Of a stretch of 24,740 nucleotides of DNA, positions 11,744 to 19,029 are shown in pieces (within the stretch, counting starts at the first letter, position 1; the number at the start of each line of letters is the position of its first letter). Source of the stretch: Nostoc sp. GT001 (GTDB taxonomy: Bacteria; Cyanobacteriota; Cyanobacteriia; Cyanobacteriales; Nostocaceae). Below the pieces are notes generated by a model, which saw only the letters and a list, made by a program, of their open reading frames with translations, was not told the DNA's origin and made no database searches. The stretch lies in the NCBI RefSeq assembly GCF_030382115.1, contig NZ_JAUDRJ010000003.1, positions 478,052 to 502,791 of the forward strand, in the 5' to 3' direction. The position numbers and the translations under genes were made by a program.

Positions 11744-11869
11744 AGCACTGACAGCTATTATGCAATACAGACCGCCAGGGAATAGAATTCCCTGTCTAAT
11801 GGTGCAAGTCCTCTAGAAGAGGACTAGAAAAACTTGGGTTAAAGCACTGACAGCTATTATGCAATACAG
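11744..11869. repeat. Direct 27-bp repeats flanking two AGA-loop hairpins
   Basis: An exact 27-bp sequence, beginning AGCACTGACAGCTATTATGC, occurs at 11744-11770 and 11843-11869. Between the copies lie two perfect 8-bp-stem hairpins, CAGGGAAT-AGA-ATTCCCTG (about 11776-11794) and AGTCCTCT-AGA-AGAGGACT (about 11808-11826), with the same AGA loop. No reading frame is present. On the minus strand the 27-mer resembles the element at 11919-11948. The gap 11678-12089 contains no gene; it probably holds the promoter of the small gene at 12090. Confidence 0.85.
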
Positions 11870-11918
11870 TACAGTTTTTCTTTTTGCCCTTTTCTATCAT
11901 AGCTTTCAGCTTTGAGGA

Positions 11919-11948
11919 TGTACCTCATAGCTGCCGGAAGTGCTGTAA
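11919..11948 (+). repeat. Dispersed element TGTACCTCAT-N9-AAGTGCTGTAA, copy upstream of module 1
   Basis: The same bipartite sequence occurs at 16311-16340 (TGTACCTCAT, nine bases, AAGCGCTGTAA) with identical spacing. Diverged minus-strand copies lie at 11744-11770, 11843-11869 and 16238-16265. ATAGCTG...AGTGCT in this copy pairs with AGCACT...CAGCTAT of the 27-mer at 11843, so the two can form a stem-loop. Function unknown. Confidence 0.7.
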
Positions 11949-12004
11949 ATAATTTGAATTGGTATTAATAAAAATAGCTGTAAAGAAAATCCCGCAGGAA
12001 AATT

Positions 12005-12062
12005 ATGAACTTTTATGACACTGAGCGTAATCATTGCTAACTAAACTGAAGCAGTAATTATA
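12005..12062 (+). repeat. 58-bp block shared upstream of both small Cys-tail genes (copy 1)
   Basis: Aligned without gaps to 15670-15727, 40 of 58 positions agree, including GCGTAAT, CTGAA and TAATTAT cores. It ends 28 bp before the small gene at 12090. It is likely a conserved promoter or leader, or simply homology left by module duplication. Confidence 0.7.
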
Positions 12063-12089
12063 CACATCCCGTCAGGAACGAAAACACTC

Positions 12090-12416
12090 ATGAGTTCTCA
12101 ACAAGTCATAGATCCTCAAATATTACAGCAGTTACAAGAAGAGATTCAGCAGAAAATGAATGAAAGCCTAGAAAACGCTGACTTACATTCAGTGCTTGAA
12201 AAGTACGGCTTATTAGAGTACAGAGTCTTGAGAATTCATTGGCAGTGTAATCTCGATCCCAATCAACTCAAATCAGATGATGCAGTTGATGAACAGCAAC
12301 CCAATGCATTATTGCCAACAACTCCAAGACCTTCAATACCAGAAATTGTGTTAGTCAAAAAAGCATTGTGTATCCCTTGTCCATCAACTGGTAGCCCTTT
12401 AGGCTGTAACTGCTAA
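12090..12416 (+). CDS. Small protein with a cysteine-rich C-terminal tail (unknown function)
   Basis: 108 aa, not recognised. The N-terminal half is acidic and helical (residues 8-50). A proline-rich linker follows (71-85), then a short tail with four cysteines (94, 97, 106, 108: LCIPCPSTGSPLGCNC); Cys53 is the only other. There is no signal peptide or membrane segment. A leader plus a short Cys/Ser/Thr/Gly-rich end is the general layout of ribosomally made, modified peptides. It could equally be a metal-binding tail or a small partner of the adhesin gene 168 bp downstream. No modifying enzyme is visible. AGGAA at 12073-12077 is a loosely spaced Shine-Dalgarno sequence. A hairpin follows at 12436. 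The ordered N-terminus and stop position support a real gene. Confidence 0.65.
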   Translation: MSSQQVIDPQILQQLQEEIQQKMNESLENADLHSVLEKYGLLEYRVLRIHWQCNLDPNQLKSDDAVDEQQPNALLPTTPRPSIPEIVLVKKALCIPCPSTGSPLGCNC

Positions 12417-12435
12417 ATAATTTAATCTTCGGACT

Positions 12436-12482
12436 GCAAAGAGTTTATTCTAGTAAATGTAAAAATACTAAACTTTGCTTTT
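12436..12482 (+). terminator. Hairpin with T-rich tail behind the first small gene
   Basis: GCAAAGAGTTTA (12436-12447) pairs with TAAACTTTGC (12469-12478) with a 2-base bulge, followed by TTTTAT. It stands 20 bp behind the stop codon and about 105 bp before the adhesin ATG. It may end or attenuate the small-gene transcript. Confidence 0.55.
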
Positions 12483-12584
12483 ATGTAGTAGTTAGGCTAC
12501 AAAGATAACCTCAGCGTACTAACATCGCTAATTAGCAAAAAGCAGTATTTTAATAAACTCTGATGTTTTGAGAGCCAGTTTTTC

Positions 12585-15047
12585 ATGTCTCAAAATCGAA
12601 GCAGTTGCCACTGGAAGTTAGGAATAGTGAGTACTTTAGTAATTGCTAGAGTGCTCATTTTTGCTGAGAGTTTTGCCTTAGCTCAAATTCAAAAAGATGC
12701 CACACTTGGATCTGAAAGTTCGATCATTACACCAAAGCTCATTGATGGTCAGCCTATAGACCAGATTGATGGTGGAGCAGTTCGTGGTACAAGCTTGCTC
12801 CACAGCTTTGAAAAATTTTCTATCTCTGCGGGAAGGACAGCCCATTTTAACAATGCAATCAATATTCAGAACATTATCAGTCGGGTGACAGGCAATTCTG
12901 TTTCTAATATAGATGGCATTCTCAAAGCTAACGGTACAGCTAACGTATTTTTGATTAATCCTAACGGCATTGTTTTTGGTACCAATGCTTCTTTAAATAT
13001 TGGCGGTTCATTTGTGGCGAGTACGGCGAGTAGTGTGAACTTTGCTGATGGTACAAACTTTAGTGCTACATCTAGTCAAACTGCACCTCTACTCACAGAA
13101 AGTGTTCCTATAGGTTTACAATTCGGAACAAATGCGGCGCCCATCCGCAATCAATCCCAAGCAAGTCCCAATAATACAATTAATACCTTCGGACAAGGTG
13201 TTGGTCTACAGGTGCAGCAAGGCAAAACCCTAGCACTTATAGGCGGTAATATAACGCTAGAGGGCGGAAATTTAACGGCAAGTGGGGGAAGAATTGAGTT
13301 AGGAAGCGTTGCTGGCAATAGTTTGGTTGGTCTGAATTCAACGAATCAAGGTTGGGTATTAGGATATGAAGGTGTTCAAAATTTTCAGAACATCGAACTC
13401 ACCCAGCAAAGTGAGATTCCATCTACTATAGATACCAGTGGCAAAGGTGGCGGTAATATCCACCTGCAAGGACAACGAGTATTGGTGACTGACGGTTCAC
13501 AAATTTTGGCTCTTAGCCTGGGAACGCAACCAGGAGGAAATTTGACAGTGAACGCTTCCGAATCTGTAGAACTTGGACTAAATGCGTTCTTGTCTACTGG
13601 AACTTTCGACACTGGAAACTCTGGAGATATAAATATCACTACCAGAAAGTTGATTGTCAAAGATGGAGCGCAAGTCTTAATGTTCAATCTGGGGTCGGGA
13701 TTGGCGGGGCAATTGACCATCAACGCCTCAGATTCCGTAGAACTAATTGCAGGCATCCCCATTTCTCCTTTGCCAGATGGTAGTGATTTAACATCCAGTG
13801 GATTATTTAGTGCAACTTATGGCACTCCAAATGCTGGCAGCATAATAATTAATACTGGAAAGTTACGTATTGAGGGAGGGGCAGCAATATCAACAAGTTC
13901 TGAGGGTATACTTGGGCGTTTTTCTAACCAATTTATACCAGCTACAGGAGATGGAGGAGATTTGATAGTGAACGCCTCTGAGTCCGTAGAATTAATAGGA
14001 ACCTCAGCAAATGGTTCTAGGCTCAGTAGCTTGTTTGCTGGGACTCAAGGGACTGGAAATGGCGGCAACTTGACCCTAACTACAGGGCAATTGATTATCA
14101 AAGATGGGGCGGCAATAACTGTCAGCAGTGAAGCTCGAAAAAATGTTAACTATCAAGGGGATGTACCCAATTTAGGTCTAGCAGGCGAACTCAATATAAG
14201 CGCTCGTTCCATTCTGCTGGATAAAGGAAAACTCACATCTAATAGTGAGTCAGGTAAGGGCGGTGACATTGCGGTACAGGTGCGGGACTTATTACTGATG
14301 CGTCGCAACAGTCAAATCTCTACTAATGCCGGAGGTGATAAAACTGGCGGTAATATCACCATCAATGCACCTAATGGCTTTCTCGTCGCCACTCTTTTCG
14401 GAAATAGCGATATTACCGCCAATGCCAACTTTGGTTCTGGTGGTAAAATTGCGATCGCCGCTAAGAATATCTTTGGATTTGTGCCACGCACCCGTGCAGA
14501 GGTGGAGATATTTGATCCAAAAGATATAAACCCGAATAACATCTCAACAAGTGACATCACTGCATTTTCTCAGCAAAACCCTTCATTAAGTGGCACTGTA
14601 CAAATCAACTCACCAGATGCTGACCCCAGTAAAGGATTAGTGGAACTACCTGTAAATCTGGTTGATGCTTCGCAGCAAATTGTTGCTAGTTGTAGTTCTG
14701 GTGGAAAAATAGGAAGAAGTTCGTTTTTTACTACTGGGCGTGGAGGAATACAAGCCGATCCCACGGAGCCATTGATAGCTGATGATGCAGTGCTAGCAGA
14801 TTGGATTGCCCTTCCTCCAGAGAGTCAGAATCGTGCTGGTGGTATTCAGAAAAAAGTGGTTATTCAGGCGCAGGGATACACAGAAGAAAAATCACAGAAG
14901 GTTAATTCTATCGATGAACCTACTCAAATTGTAGAAGCCCAAGGGTGGATTATAGATGCCAATGGGAATGTGGTTCTGGTTGCTCAAGTACCCACTGCAT
15001 CGCCCCATAACTCCTCGCTCGTCGCTACATTTTGCGGTGCTAACTAA
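12585..15047 (+). CDS. Filamentous-haemagglutinin-type secreted adhesin (TpsA-like), module 1
   Basis: 820 aa. This is a secreted beta-helical protein of the two-partner secretion class. A signal peptide occupies residues 1-33, with cleavage likely after ALA. The N-terminal haemagglutination-activity (TPS) domain spans about 36-170: it contains SRVTG, SNIDGILKANGTANVFLINP, NPNGIVFG and IGGSFVASTASSVNF. The middle is built of degenerate beta-helix repeats of the G-G-N-L/I-T/x-I/V-N-A-S-x-S-V-E-L type at about 210-640. The C-terminal 180 residues are nearly the same as in the second adhesin. The mature protein has only two cysteines, 703 and 817. The function is probably surface adhesion or matrix, and the target is unknown. 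TpsA proteins need a TpsB outer-membrane transporter; none is in the window. No clear Shine-Dalgarno sequence precedes the ATG. Confidence 0.9.
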   Translation: MSQNRSSCHWKLGIVSTLVIARVLIFAESFALAQIQKDATLGSESSIITPKLIDGQPIDQIDGGAVRGTSLLHSFEKFSISAGRTAHFNNAINIQNIISRVTGNSVSNIDGILKANGTANVFLINPNGIVFGTNASLNIGGSFVASTASSVNFADGTNFSATSSQTAPLLTESVPIGLQFGTNAAPIRNQSQASPNNTINTFGQGVGLQVQQGKTLALIGGNITLEGGNLTASGGRIELGSVAGNSLVGLNSTNQGWVLGYEGVQNFQNIELTQQSEIPSTIDTSGKGGGNIHLQGQRVLVTDGSQILALSLGTQPGGNLTVNASESVELGLNAFLSTGTFDTGNSGDINITTRKLIVKDGAQVLMFNLGSGLAGQLTINASDSVELIAGIPISPLPDGSDLTSSGLFSATYGTPNAGSIIINTGKLRIEGGAAISTSSEGILGRFSNQFIPATGDGGDLIVNASESVELIGTSANGSRLSSLFAGTQGTGNGGNLTLTTGQLIIKDGAAITVSSEARKNVNYQGDVPNLGLAGELNISARSILLDKGKLTSNSESGKGGDIAVQVRDLLLMRRNSQISTNAGGDKTGGNITINAPNGFLVATLFGNSDITANANFGSGGKIAIAAKNIFGFVPRTRAEVEIFDPKDINPNNISTSDITAFSQQNPSLSGTVQINSPDADPSKGLVELPVNLVDASQQIVASCSSGGKIGRSSFFTTGRGGIQADPTEPLIADDAVLADWIALPPESQNRAGGIQKKVVIQAQGYTEEKSQKVNSIDEPTQIVEAQGWIIDANGNVVLVAQVPTASPHNSSLVATFCGAN

Positions 15048-15075
15048 AAATTGAGATTCTCATAACTTTTGTTAA

Positions 15076-15535
15076 TGCGTTGGCGTAGCCCATCGTAGAC
15101 ATCGCCTCTTTGCAATGAACTTTATATGTAGCGATCGCTCTTTTGACTGAATTCAGGTGTCATATCATGTCCGCATAATTAGTTATGCTAACCACAGTCA
15201 TTGCACCCCACCCCCAGCCCCTCCCCGCTTGCGGGGAGGGGAGACAAAGCGCAGCTTTGGCGGGGTGGGGTTCTTGGGGTTTAGTAAGTAATTAAGCGGA
15301 CATGATATCAGTGCGATCGCCCCTTCTACTCAAATCAAGTGTGGTGTGATCGCTTCTTTGCAATGACATTCATACAAGCGATCGCCCTTTCCATTAAATC
15401 AGTGCGTTGGCGTAGACCTTCGTAGATATCGCTGATTTGCTATGACCTTCATACAAGCGATCGCTTTTTTGGCTGAATTCAGTGCGCCAGTGCAATCATT
15501 GATTTGCAATGACCTTCATACGAGCGATCGCCTTA
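15076..15535. repeat. Degenerate HIP1-containing repeat array
   Basis: A unit of the form CAATGACCTTCATACAAGCG followed by ATCGC recurs at about 15114, 15361, 15442 and 15508, each ending in the HIP1 octamer GCGATCGC. Two copies of GCGTTGGCGTAG followed by a CGTAGA-ATCGC segment (about 15076, 15403) and several GAATTCAGTGCG segments are interspersed. Without the inserted element at 15157-15308 the period is roughly 65-95 bp. There is no reading frame. Spacers are not unique in the CRISPR sense. Confidence 0.8.
15157..15308. mobile_element. MITE-like element with terminal inverted repeats, inserted in the HIP1 array
   Basis: ATATCATGTCCGC at 15162-15174 is the exact reverse complement of 15296-15308. 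The match continues inwards (TAATTA after one mismatch). Inside are nested stems: CCCCTCCCCGC-TT-GCGGGGAGGGG (perfect 11 bp) and CAAAGC-GCA-GCTTTG, enclosed by CCCCACCC/GGGGTGGGG. There is no coding capacity, so it would need a transposase in trans. CAG stands on both sides (15154-15156, 15309-15311) and may be a 3-bp target duplication; the left boundary is uncertain by about 5 bases. Flanking text matches neighbouring array units, supporting insertion into a pre-existing repeat. Confidence 0.75.
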
Positions 15536-15593
15536 ATAAAGCCTGTGAGCTTATCCAAATCATAAACAGAGTGTGAGACTTGAAGAGATATCA

Positions 15594-15616
15594 ATTACTC
15601 AATTCTCTTGAGTAAT
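15594..15616. other. Perfect hairpin in the leader region of module 2
   Basis: ATTACTCAA-TTCTC-TTGAGTAAT has 9-bp arms. It lies 54 bp before the 58-bp conserved block and has no T-run, so it is not a typical terminator. It could be a protein-binding palindrome. The rest of 15536-15887 contains no gene. Confidence 0.5.
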
Positions 15617-15669
15617 CAACGGTGAGTAGCCAGATTTATCAATTCTTTAAGCAAATCCAGCACAAATAT

Positions 15670-15727
15670 ATGAAGTTTTGTAACACAATGCGTAATTATA
15701 ACTAGTCAAGCTGAATTCATAATTATC
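15670..15727 (+). repeat. 58-bp block shared upstream of both small Cys-tail genes (copy 2)
   Basis: This is the partner of 12005-12062 (40 of 58 positions identical, ungapped). Here it ends 161 bp before the small gene at 15888, so the region downstream of it has been expanded or contracted in one module. Confidence 0.7.
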
Positions 15728-15887
15728 GGAGTTCACAAGAGCGTTAGAAACTTAATGCTTTCGTTACACTCTAAACTTTGTATTATTGATTCCTTCGTTG
15801 CCAAACTGTACTAATCAAACTCACGTTAATTGAGTACATCACAAGATAAGTTTATACATTTACCAGTCTGCAAAAAGAGCGAAAATT

Positions 15888-16169
15888 ATGAATTCTCAAA
15901 ATACACGGCAGTCAACAAACAATATTCAAAACGAATTGAGTGAAGACCTGAAGAACTCTGAGGTGAGTGTTGTGAGCAAAAATAACGATGTAGTGGGAGA
16001 CGATTCTCAAGAAGAATTGCAGACCAGTATCGGCCTAAAAACAAATGAATTTGATGATACTGTTAGCAAGCAAGAAATTAAGGATTTGACAGGAGTAATT
16101 CAATCTAAAAAACTTGCAGAAGAGGTCTGCTGGTATAACCAACAAGGTATAAGGGTATGTAGACCTTAA
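15888..16169 (+). CDS. Small acidic protein with paired C-terminal cysteines (unknown function)
   Basis: 93 aa, not recognised. It is hydrophilic and rich in Asn, Gln, Ser, Glu and Asp over residues 1-75, and predicted largely disordered. It ends in EEVCWYNQQGIRVCRP, with Cys81 and Cys91 as its only cysteines, nine residues apart and close to the end. There is no signal peptide. It occupies the same relative place as the 108-aa gene of module 1: a shared upstream 58-bp block, a following hairpin, then an adhesin gene. The two proteins do not align well outside the M-x-S-Q start and the cysteine tail. It may be a modified-peptide precursor, a redox or metal-binding tail, or an adhesin-associated factor; nothing decides between these. 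Confidence 0.6.
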   Translation: MNSQNTRQSTNNIQNELSEDLKNSEVSVVSKNNDVVGDDSQEELQTSIGLKTNEFDDTVSKQEIKDLTGVIQSKKLAEEVCWYNQQGIRVCRP

Positions 16170-16187
16170 TTGTGTATCAACTTAATA

Positions 16188-16237
16188 ATTAACTTTCTAT
16201 TGAGAATTAAGGTAATAGTTAACAATAGAAAGTTAAT
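16188..16237 (+). terminator. Strong hairpin behind the second small gene
   Basis: Perfect 15-bp arms, 16188-16202 (ATTAACTTTCTATTG) and 16223-16237, enclose a 20-base loop. The hairpin starts 18 bases behind the small gene's stop codon. There is no T-run, so it could be a transcript-stabilising or processing structure rather than an intrinsic terminator. Confidence 0.55.
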
Positions 16238-16340
16238 ACAGCAGATTCGATGTTTATGAGGTACAGAAACCGATTCAAATTCAAAGTTTAAAAACTATCC
16301 CTGAAATTGGTGTACCTCATGTACCTCAAAAGCGCTGTAA
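16238..16340. repeat. Divergent pair of the TGTACCTCAT element upstream of adhesin 2
   Basis: ATGAGGTACA at 16256-16265 is the exact complement of TGTACCTCAT at 16311-16320. TGTACCTCA is then repeated in tandem (16320-16328), followed by AAGCGCTGTAA. The left copy, read on the minus strand, also continues to a GCTGTA core. The gap 16170-16701 otherwise contains no gene. The probable adhesin promoter lies in 16350-16680 and is not resolvable by eye. Confidence 0.7.
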
Positions 16341-16701
16341 TATATAGGAATTCTATCTAATGTTTGAACAGAATTTTAGATAAAACCCTGATATAATGGG
16401 CTTTTAATTCTCAGCATTTTTTCAACAATTAAATTGGAGTCCTATATTCTTAGAGGTTGTTTTAAAACTCCTAGAAGTAAGGATGATTTTGTAGTTGTAA
16501 CTTGGGTTAACTCCGGACAAAAATCAAGGTTTTAGCTATCGAATAAGATACTTTGCTGTGCTAATTAGGATAGTAAAAGACCCTTTTAAAACATCCTCTT
16601 AGCAACTCTATAGATTAGCAATTTCAATGTAGTGTACTTAATACAAATGCAGCGTTAGCATTGTTCAGCAACTGTTAATTCTTTGAAGGAGTGCATTAAG
16701 T

Positions 16702-19029
16702 ATGAGTACTCGTTGGGTCTGGTTTAAAGGTCTAGGAATTGCCATCATTGGTACAATAGCCTTTTCTGCAAACTCTGCTATTGCCCAAATTACCCAGGAT
16801 GATACTTTACCTAATAATTCTCAAGTTAGACTACAGGGTAATATCACAATTATTGAAGGTGGAACCCTATCCCAAAGTGGACGCAATCTATTCCACAGTT
16901 TTAAGGAGTTTTCCGTAATTAAAAATAGCATTGCTGAATTTAAAAATGCTGACAGTGTTCAGAACATTATTAGCCGGGTAACAGGTAAGTCTGTTTCTAA
17001 TATTGATGGCATTCTTAAAGCTAATGGTACAGCCAACCTATTTTTGATTAATCCTAACGGAATAATTTTTGGTCCCAATTCTTCTTTACAAATTGGCGGC
17101 TCATTTGTGGCGAGTACAGCGAGTAGCCTAAACTTTACCGATGGAACTAAATTTAGTGCCACAGATCCACAAACCCCACCTCTGCTAACGGTAAATGTTC
17201 CCAATGGCTTACAATTCGGCACAACTGCGGCGTTCATCCACAATCAATCTCAAGCACCTAGCTCAGATGACGTGACAACTAATATACCTGTTGGTCTACA
17301 AGTACAGCCAAATAAAACCTTGGCACTTGTAGGTGGCGACATAACTCTGGAGGGCGGAAATTTAACAGCAGCGTCAGGACGAATTGAGTTAGGAAGTGTT
17401 GCTAGTAATAGTCTGGTCGACCTTAAACCAACAGACCAAGGTTGGATTTTAGGATATCAAGGTGTCCAGAATTTCCAAGATATTCGATTAACTGTTGACG
17501 GTAATAAGATTGCATCTCAGGTCAGTGCTAGTAATAGAGATGGCAGTGGCGGCAATATCCAAATCCAGGGTAACTTAGTGGAACTAACTGGTCCTGTAGT
17601 TTTAAAAACTCAGACTACGGGTGTTGGAAATGGCGGAGATTTAACGATTACTAGCAAGAAAATAATCATTCGGGATGGAGCACAAGTAAGCACTACTACT
17701 TTGGGCAAGGGTGATGGAGGAAAGTTGACCTTAAATGCTTCAGAATCTGTGGAGGTGATTGGTGGCTTTCCCTTGCCAGATAGTAATGATAGACGACCTA
17801 GTGGATTGTTGAGTTCAACTACTGTTGCCGGAAAGGCGGGTGACATAAATATTAACACTGGCAGGTTACTTATTGAAGATGGGGGACAGGTAGCAACAGA
17901 TTCTACTGCATTAGAGCAAATAGCTGGTACAGGAAAAGGAGGAAATTTGACTGTAAACGCCTCTTCGGTAGAGCTAATTGGAAGCTTAACAAGTGCGTCC
18001 ACTGGTTTGTTTGCTTCTACAAATACTTCTGGAGATGCGGGTAATGTAATAATTGATACAAAAGAATTAATTATCCGGAACGGAGCTAAAGTAACTGTGA
18101 GCAGTCAACTTCTTCCAGACTATTTCAAATACACAGAGGATGTATTTAGCTCAGGAAAAGCAGGCGATCTCAATATCACTGCTAGATCGATTCTTCTGGA
18201 CAATCAAGGAAGTCTCACATCTGATAGTGAATTAGGTCGGGGCGGTAATATTTCGCTACAGGTGCAGGACTTATTACTGATACGCGGCAACAGTCAAATA
18301 ACCACTAACGCCAGGGGTGATGGAGATGGCGGTAATATTACTATCAAAGCACCTAATGGTTTCCTTGCCGCCAGTCTCTTAGGAAATAGCGATATCACCG
18401 CCAACACCGTCTCTGGCTCTGGTGGTAAAATCACAATCACTGCTAAGAACATCTTTGGTTTTGTACCCCGCACAGGTGCAGACGTAGAGAAGCTTGATCC
18501 AAAAGAAAAAGACCCAAATAATCTCCAAACAAATGACATCACGGCGTTTTCTCAGCAAAACCCTTCATTAAATGGCACTGTACAAATCAACTCACCAGAT
18601 GCTGATCTCAGTAGGGGATTAGTGGAACTACCCGTAAATCTGGTTGATGCTTCGCGGCAAATTGCTGCTAGTTGTAGTTCTGGTGGAAAAATAGCAAGAA
18701 GTTCATTTATTACCACTGGACGTGGAGGACTAGTAGCCGATCCCACCCAGCCATTGATAGCTGATGATGCAGTGCTAGCAGATTGGATCGCGCTACCTCC
18801 AGAGAGTCGGAATCGTGCTGGCGGTATTAAGAAAAGAGCCGTTGTTCAGGCGCAGCGAAACACAGAAGTAAAATCACAGAAAGTTAATTCTGTCAACGAA
18901 CCTATTCAAATTGTAGAAGCCCAAGGCTGGGTAATGGATGCCAATGGGAACGTAGTTCTGGTTGCTCAAGTACCTACAGAATTGCCCCATAATTCCTCGC
19001 TCACCCCTACATCTTGCCCTGCTCATTAA
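16702..19029 (+). CDS. Filamentous-haemagglutinin-type secreted adhesin (TpsA-like), module 2
   Basis: 775 aa, paralogue of the adhesin at 12585. GAAGGAG (16685-16691) stands 10 bases before the ATG. The signal peptide is residues 1-28, ending AIA. The TPS/haemagglutination domain spans about 30-165 and contains SRVTG, SNIDGILKANGTANLFLINP, NPNGIIFG and IGGSFVASTASSLNF. Degenerate beta-helix repeats of the GGxLTLNASESVEVIG kind follow. The C-terminal 180 residues closely match adhesin 1 (LVELPVNLVDASRQI, DDAVLADWIALPPES, AQGWVMDANGNVVLVAQVPT). The middle differs in length and order. The only two cysteines are 658 and 772, with the same 114-residue spacing as in adhesin 1. It probably reaches the cell surface or sheath through an unlinked TpsB. 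Confidence 0.9.
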   Translation: MSTRWVWFKGLGIAIIGTIAFSANSAIAQITQDDTLPNNSQVRLQGNITIIEGGTLSQSGRNLFHSFKEFSVIKNSIAEFKNADSVQNIISRVTGKSVSNIDGILKANGTANLFLINPNGIIFGPNSSLQIGGSFVASTASSLNFTDGTKFSATDPQTPPLLTVNVPNGLQFGTTAAFIHNQSQAPSSDDVTTNIPVGLQVQPNKTLALVGGDITLEGGNLTAASGRIELGSVASNSLVDLKPTDQGWILGYQGVQNFQDIRLTVDGNKIASQVSASNRDGSGGNIQIQGNLVELTGPVVLKTQTTGVGNGGDLTITSKKIIIRDGAQVSTTTLGKGDGGKLTLNASESVEVIGGFPLPDSNDRRPSGLLSSTTVAGKAGDININTGRLLIEDGGQVATDSTALEQIAGTGKGGNLTVNASSVELIGSLTSASTGLFASTNTSGDAGNVIIDTKELIIRNGAKVTVSSQLLPDYFKYTEDVFSSGKAGDLNITARSILLDNQGSLTSDSELGRGGNISLQVQDLLLIRGNSQITTNARGDGDGGNITIKAPNGFLAASLLGNSDITANTVSGSGGKITITAKNIFGFVPRTGADVEKLDPKEKDPNNLQTNDITAFSQQNPSLNGTVQINSPDADLSRGLVELPVNLVDASRQIAASCSSGGKIARSSFITTGRGGLVADPTQPLIADDAVLADWIALPPESRNRAGGIKKRAVVQAQRNTEVKSQKVNSVNEPIQIVEAQGWVMDANGNVVLVAQVPTELPHNSSLTPTSCPAH

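Follow-up and report, generated by a model that had tools for sequence, protein, structure and literature searches.

Type III secretion chaperones are small, acidic proteins encoded beside their substrates, and the precursors of ribosomally synthesized and post-translationally modified peptides (RiPPs) join one leader to many cores. For two-partner secretion (TPS), the relevant sections of a review describe a C-terminal disulfide anchor in HMW1 and HxuA and cite BcpO as an accessory gene (PMC5422565). Passages of a study of Burkholderia TPS loci that encode contact-dependent growth inhibition (CDI) report that BcpO alleles 10–16 (57–172 aa) lack a predicted signal sequence and show mostly allele-specific variation with the exoprotein, and that BcpO of strain E264 is a predicted lipoprotein required for full exoprotein activity (PMC3415462). 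In Nostoc, a filamentous haemagglutinin N-domain protein is among the entries in a table of phage-resistant mutants (PMC10811720), and space-exposed cells showed variant hotspots in filamentous haemagglutinin N-domain loci (PMC9307615); the passages of these two reports that deal with such loci do not mention a small partner gene, and no explanation for the abundance of TPS adhesins in Nostoc was offered by the limited literature found. Here, a stretch of 24,740 nucleotides from Nostoc sp. GT001 (contig NZ_JAUDRJ010000003.1; hereafter the window) was analysed. It belongs to a genome of 7.9 Mb, and relatives of the window place it in Nostoc. The window contains two consecutive plus-strand modules (12004–15047 and 15669–19029), each consisting of a 58-bp block, a small gene with a Cys-rich tail and a TPS adhesin gene. 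The results suggest a previously undescribed, dedicated adhesin partner, a small acidic protein whose gene almost always lies directly 5' of one type of secreted surface adhesin in Nostoc-type cyanobacteria.

The initial annotation of this DNA had proposed two modules with the same gene order on the plus strand and cysteines at the very C-terminal ends of both small proteins, and both proposals were borne out. The features of the two modules are as follows.

12004..12061, plus strand: conserved 58-bp block of module 1, from 86 to 29 bases 5' of the start codon (genome-wide E 1.6e-12).
12090..12416, plus strand: gene 1, for a small protein of 108 aa (pI 4.7) of the fixed-slot type, with the Cys tail CIPCPSTGSPLGCNC.
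12585..15047, plus strand: adhesin 1, TpsA-like, 820 aa (PF05860 2e-60; TIGR01901 6.6e-25).
15669..15726, plus strand: conserved 58-bp block of module 2, from 219 to 162 bases 5' of the start codon (genome-wide E 1.5e-16).
15888..16169, plus strand: gene 2, for a small protein of 93 aa (pI 4.5) of the variable-slot type, with the Cys tail CWYNQQGIRVCRP.
16188..16237, plus strand: hairpin 3' of small gene 2, 15-bp stem with no T run behind it (RNA fold z −3.0).
16702..19029, plus strand: adhesin 2, TpsA-like, 775 aa (PF05860 1.5e-66).

Both adhesins possess an N-terminal TPS domain that scores above the PF05860 cut-off, and TPS and haemagglutinin N-domain models were the only domain models matched. 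They are clear paralogues, as had been supposed, with 59% identity across the N part and 66% across residues 298–774. PF05860 has 12 matches in this genome. No TpsB (ShlB) gene was found in the window, and the only matches in the genome lie at C3:94470, 2185578, 4469139 and 7026529, two of which adjoin other TPS genes. Given that no TpsB gene stands beside them, the adhesins are labelled TpsA-like by domain, and TpsB would presumably act on them in trans. Elsewhere in the same genome (G000:C3:7195808–7196516; L011, L012, L112), the match to a TPS gene is divided between two frames, with a third adhesin fragment behind it; the gene is therefore apparently broken.

The association of the small gene with this type of adhesin was assessed from both directions. 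Among the stretches fetched from related genomes, together with the window, a same-strand TPS gene lies within 1.3 kb downstream of 61 of 65 small open reading frames (ORFs); these 61 include three signal-peptide fusions that precede another complete module. The remaining four are two orphans (L062 and L073), a truncated copy (L077) and one at a contig end (L104). The bias that comes from fetching via the small gene was avoided by an adhesin-first search with adhesin 2 against 59 genomes, in which up to 17 candidates were scored per genome, so that adhesins may be missed. At least 55 genes were recovered at E ≤ 1e-140, a cut set post hoc, and the small gene was present upstream in all 52 with upstream DNA, three adhesins cut by contig ends (G008:C13, G034:C11 and G034:C943) being left out. 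Two of these small genes, at G020:C191 and G013:C85, were first revealed by this search and were confirmed after fetching. The next row past the cut (G008:C160, 1.7e-139) is without a small gene; it matches residues 431–774 only, and the clade does not include its TPS domain. An upstream small ORF with at least two Cys in its last 20 residues precedes 59 of 59 TPS genes scored as having the small gene (partly by definition) and 1 of 26 other TPS genes, where the ORF is not a family member. The prediction that small Cys-tailed genes would recur before such adhesins (52/52 versus 1/26) was therefore upheld.

A tree of TPS domains was built from 88 rows, of which 60 have the small gene, 26 do not and 2 lie at contig ends. 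A single group of 64 rows (support 83, not starred) takes in every row with the small gene, both contig-end rows, L119 and the basal L133. The small-gene label requires two changes on this tree when the contig-end rows are omitted and four when they are kept, and none of 500 shuffles gave a value as low. The majority of rows with the small gene had been fetched via that gene; the 21 rows fetched via the adhesin alone comprise 2 with the small gene, 1 contig end and 18 without, 16 of which lie outside the 64-row group. The pairing of adhesin and small gene is nearly absolute and extends to other genera. Adhesins of ∼940–1005 aa (L120–L124) combine the clade's C-terminal half with a different TPS domain, have no small gene and are probably natural chimeras.

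The two small proteins share ∼19% identity, in keeping with the initial description of them as poorly alike. They are not unrelated, in that a gene at G033:C109 is matched by both queries and forms an intermediate between them; profiles unite the two in one unnamed family. Relatives of gene 1 occur in 30 of 59 genomes, every one within the 35 genomes of the genus, and relatives of gene 2 in 9 of 59 when its own sequence is the query, with more found by profile search. Profile searches matched 73 and 137 database proteins; among the 120 of 137 listed, the names are hypothetical protein, bar a few mutually discordant ones such as the UniRef name "Nif11 domain-containing protein", and the organisms are Nostoc and others that we take to belong to the order Nostocales. 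The family also occurs in records labelled as cyanobionts of Peltigera and Lobaria (lichen symbionts), and a class-wide search gave matches in 7 of 388 genomes, all from one family group. Against Pfam and NCBIfam, gene 1 had no match and gene 2 had matches below the cut-off only. When 41 family members were compared at E ≤ 1, the Pfam matches were scattered, with at most six members per family and Tag1_C the best at 7.3e-5 (best 25 of 73 families), and NCBIfam gave at most eight members per model (best 25 of 35). Two family members have unusual architectures. L065 (9813–10244) has a tandem duplication of the helical head followed by a six-Cys tail. The orphan L073 (9601–10080) has a long Ser/Gly/Phe-rich insert 5' of the Cys part; it lacks both the 58-bp block and a TPS gene, and ORFs of 331 and then 204 aa lie downstream.

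The small protein has three parts: a constrained, acidic, helical head, a mostly free linker and a Cys tail that is conserved within each class. The family is acidic, with a median pI of 4.5. In four groups of at least four sequences, the ratio of nonsynonymous to synonymous substitution (dN/dS, ω) was 0.10–0.28 for the head and 0.12–0.29 for the last 17 residues, and linker values were 0.84, 0.84, 1.41 and 0.27, the last in A clade 2. In the group containing gene 1 (n = 7), ω was 0.10, 0.84 and 0.12 for head, linker and tail, respectively. Values well below 1 for head and tail speak for translation of the small genes. AlphaFold2 (AF2) modelling of window gene 1 gave helices at residues 9–29 and 32–38, a predicted local distance difference test score (pLDDT) below 50 for residues 62–94 and a mean of 59. 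For P0090, a relative with a tail type that is found in second slots, helices at 13–33 and 36–42, a strand at 52–58 and a tail hairpin at 86–94/99–102 were predicted with a mean pLDDT of 73.5. No solved fold was matched in a fold comparison of the small protein. Of 179 distinct tails (P0018, P0053, P0057, P0144, L077 and L104 being left out), 158 have 2, 4 or 6 Cys among their final 24 residues, and 22 of the 27 Cys spacing patterns are even-numbered, which suggests that the cysteines are paired. CxC-x4-CxC tail spacings recall the hairpin peptide protegrin. On inspection, a P-G-K-H-like motif often stands just before the tail. In five ORFs, the start and signal peptide of an adhesin run on in frame into the tail half of a small protein (L078, 8972–9367; L084, 6120–6626; L086, 11382–11759; P0054; P0072). 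Their junctions differ, and L078 and L086 have diverged little after residue 45 (dN 0.054, ω 0.50).

The 58-bp blocks of modules 1 and 2 are identical at 41 positions, one more than first counted. A profile search of upstream DNA found the block 5' of 62 of 67 small ORFs, other genera included, so that the similarity is more than chance. It stands at a mostly fixed distance, ∼86 or 73 bases before first-slot starts and ∼219 before second-slot starts. The match is weak in L065 (E 0.0098), and the block is missing 5' of L073, L118 and three signal-peptide fusions. When the whole genome was scanned, only the two modules scored, the next value of 0.15 being at chance level. Most simply, the block would be a promoter or a regulator site. 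The stretch between block and start in second-slot genes (window 15727–15887; also, e.g., L099, L091, L069) forms an in-frame extension of ∼30–45 codons in several genomes, but in the window a TGA interrupts it 57 bases ahead of the gene 2 start; it is probably a conserved 5' untranslated region. The hairpin initially placed just behind each stop is strong behind gene 2 only, given that no structure better than shuffles was found 3' of gene 1 (z 0.16). Across the family, structure at z ≤ −2 occurs 3' of 17 of 66 small ORFs (mean z −1.20), and among 67 control stretches 8 reach this level (mean −0.19). There is some excess of structure 3' of the small genes, yet no regular hairpin in the module.

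Eighteen loci hold both modules, and in these the two slots differ; adhesin identity for slot B was taken from 17, the cut adhesin of L088 being dropped. In the first slot (A), 2 tail Cys patterns occur, and mean identity is 83% for tails, 69% for heads and 78% for adhesins. In the second slot (B), 10 patterns occur, and identity is 28% for tails, 42% for heads, 67% for adhesins and 53% for the adhesin middle. The tail is fixed in slot A and hypervariable between species in slot B. The small gene had been described as diverging, which is accurate for the second slot and not for the first. The two-module locus is largely syntenic, also in another genus (L063), between genes that we take to encode an ABC permease and a ParB-like protein. 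In G383, the slots are split, A adjoining the permease gene and B the ParB-like gene.

Covariation of tail and adhesin was examined in sets of 31 modules (first-slot tail excluded) and 59 modules (both slots), from which three signal-peptide fusions, the truncated L077, the orphans L062 and L073, and L104 and L125 at contig ends had been dropped. In the 31 modules, distances between tails correlated with those of the adhesin middle (0.687), the N part (0.481), the head (0.414) and the C end (0.132). With limits set in advance, the partial correlation of tail and adhesin middle on the N part was 0.565 (P 0.001). In a five-region regression, the limits of which were drawn afterwards, the middle had a beta of 0.598 and the TPS domain 0.022. 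Residues ∼300–475 of adhesin 2 form the region that goes best with tail type. The head had a beta of −0.03 on the adhesin middle once the tail was in the model. In the 59 pooled modules, the tail effect was split between the middle (0.445) and the signal-peptide region (0.404). A match between tail type and adhesin-middle type is supported and partly shown, and extends only partly beyond linkage.

The functional link between small gene and adhesin put forward in the initial annotation draws support from the shared block and from selection, and moderate support from the covariation of tail and adhesin. Our preferred reading, held tentatively and with slightly less than even confidence, is that the small protein is a dedicated, allele-matched accessory partner of its own TPS adhesin. 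Each module would yield a TPS-type adhesin and its small partner from a shared promoter-like block. The tail may fold as a Cys-paired β-hairpin that touches the matching adhesin region, the head may provide a common handle for docking or export, and the protein as a whole could assist its own adhesin in folding, export or activation. If so, a third protein would be added to a secretion pathway described as two-partner, and the small partner would offer a testable handle on how Nostoc filaments, lichen symbionts included, recognise surfaces, hosts or each other. It is distinctly doubtful that the fixed and hypervariable adhesin–peptide pairs make up a surface-recognition system, in which disulfide-hairpin tails matched to the adhesin middle would be exported or bound as determinants of self/non-self or partner specificity.

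Several observations weigh against the accessory-partner reading. One adhesin inside the clade (L119) is without a small gene, which looks like a loss, and two intact small genes (L062 and L073) are without an adhesin. Selection is less clear in a three-sequence CTCW group (ω 0.43, 0.56 and 0.16 for head, linker and tail) and in some pairs; ω for L087/L102 is 0.96 over all, and several groups exceed 0.5. No signal peptide was seen on the small protein by reading alone, without a predictor, and paired cysteines would suit an oxidising compartment. The limits of the middle region in the regression were chosen after the sliding-window result had been seen, and in the 59 pooled modules the head also follows the adhesin middle (beta 0.334). 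With variable columns only, tail correlations were 0.36 for the signal peptide, 0.569 for the TPS domain, 0.716 for the middle and 0.13 for the C end. Given that the TPS domain also correlates on equally variable columns, linkage explains part of the matching. With 17 tail-class representatives, the correlation was 0.426 for the middle against 0.279 for the TPS domain.

A possible, though unlikely, alternative is that the gene encodes a peptide precursor, RiPP-like or disulfide-bonded, with the helical head as leader and the hypervariable Cys tail as a mature exported signal or recognition peptide, perhaps displayed with the adhesin. The single conserved head set against 27 mostly even tail spacings, the motif ahead of the tail and the five fusions of an adhesin signal peptide to a tail half are all consistent with such a precursor, and two LanC-type enzymes are encoded in the genome, at distant places. 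Because 64 of 179 tails lack any Ser/Thr beyond their first Cys, LanC-type enzymes could not make lanthionine rings inside about a third of the tails, and such rings cannot be a general feature. Neither YcaO nor MNIO was found in the genome, which speaks against a peptide made by either enzyme. Moreover, no maturase or exporter lies beside the window modules according to the window ORF list (flanks of relatives being unannotated and radical-SAM enzymes not searched), and AF2 models P0090 as a folded protein with a confidently placed tail hairpin, the model of window gene 1 being of low confidence.

It is also unlikely that the small protein is an independent redox or metal protein that shares only a promoter with the adhesin, the types travelling together by linkage and gene conversion. 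The variable-column correlation rises and falls along the adhesin gene partly as linkage predicts, and L062 and L073 show that small genes can live without an adhesin. However, the correlation does not peak at the nearest adhesin region, the head does not follow the adhesin middle in the 31 modules (though it does when pooled, at 0.33), and the near-absolute pairing reaches other genera. A regulatory leader ORF, with translation through the Cys tail controlling adhesin expression by attenuation, would account for the upstream position, the Cys codons at the very end, the hairpin behind gene 2 and the mild excess of structure behind small genes, but this attenuator reading is highly improbable given the amino-acid constraint over the head, the irregular occurrence of hairpins and the lack of a terminator-like site on the plus strand of 11900–16750.

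The left edge of the region that had been assigned to the module (11744–11872) is a 129-bp dispersed repeat, both ends of which carry the same 27 bases (starting at 11744 and 11843). It has 21 matches in the genome, 6 of them full-length copies with 100% identity, the window copy counted. It looks like a recent mobile element, is unrelated to the adhesin modules and falls outside the present finding.

Among described systems, BcpO is comparable by description, being a small ORF beside a TPS exoprotein gene, with signal-less alleles 10–16 that mostly vary with the exoprotein. It differs in lying 5' of the TpsB gene in toxin/immunity (CDI) systems, an arrangement not found here, with no TpsB gene in the window, and in that the BcpO passages of PMC3415462 report no Cys tail such as that of the Nostoc small protein. 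HMW1 and HxuA likewise have a cysteine-bridged element tied to display of a TPS adhesin, but the anchor described in the review sections (PMC5422565) is part of the adhesin itself and has no separate gene. The small proteins resemble type III chaperones, again by description, in being small, acidic and encoded next to a putative substrate, whereas the secretion system is a different one and the hypervariable Cys tail is particular to the Nostoc protein. Finally, a conserved leader-like head with a variable, Cys-rich C-terminus in place of a core was found in the small proteins, as in RiPP precursors; unlike those, the Nostoc small gene is tied to an adhesin gene, and no enzyme or exporter is seen by the window modules.

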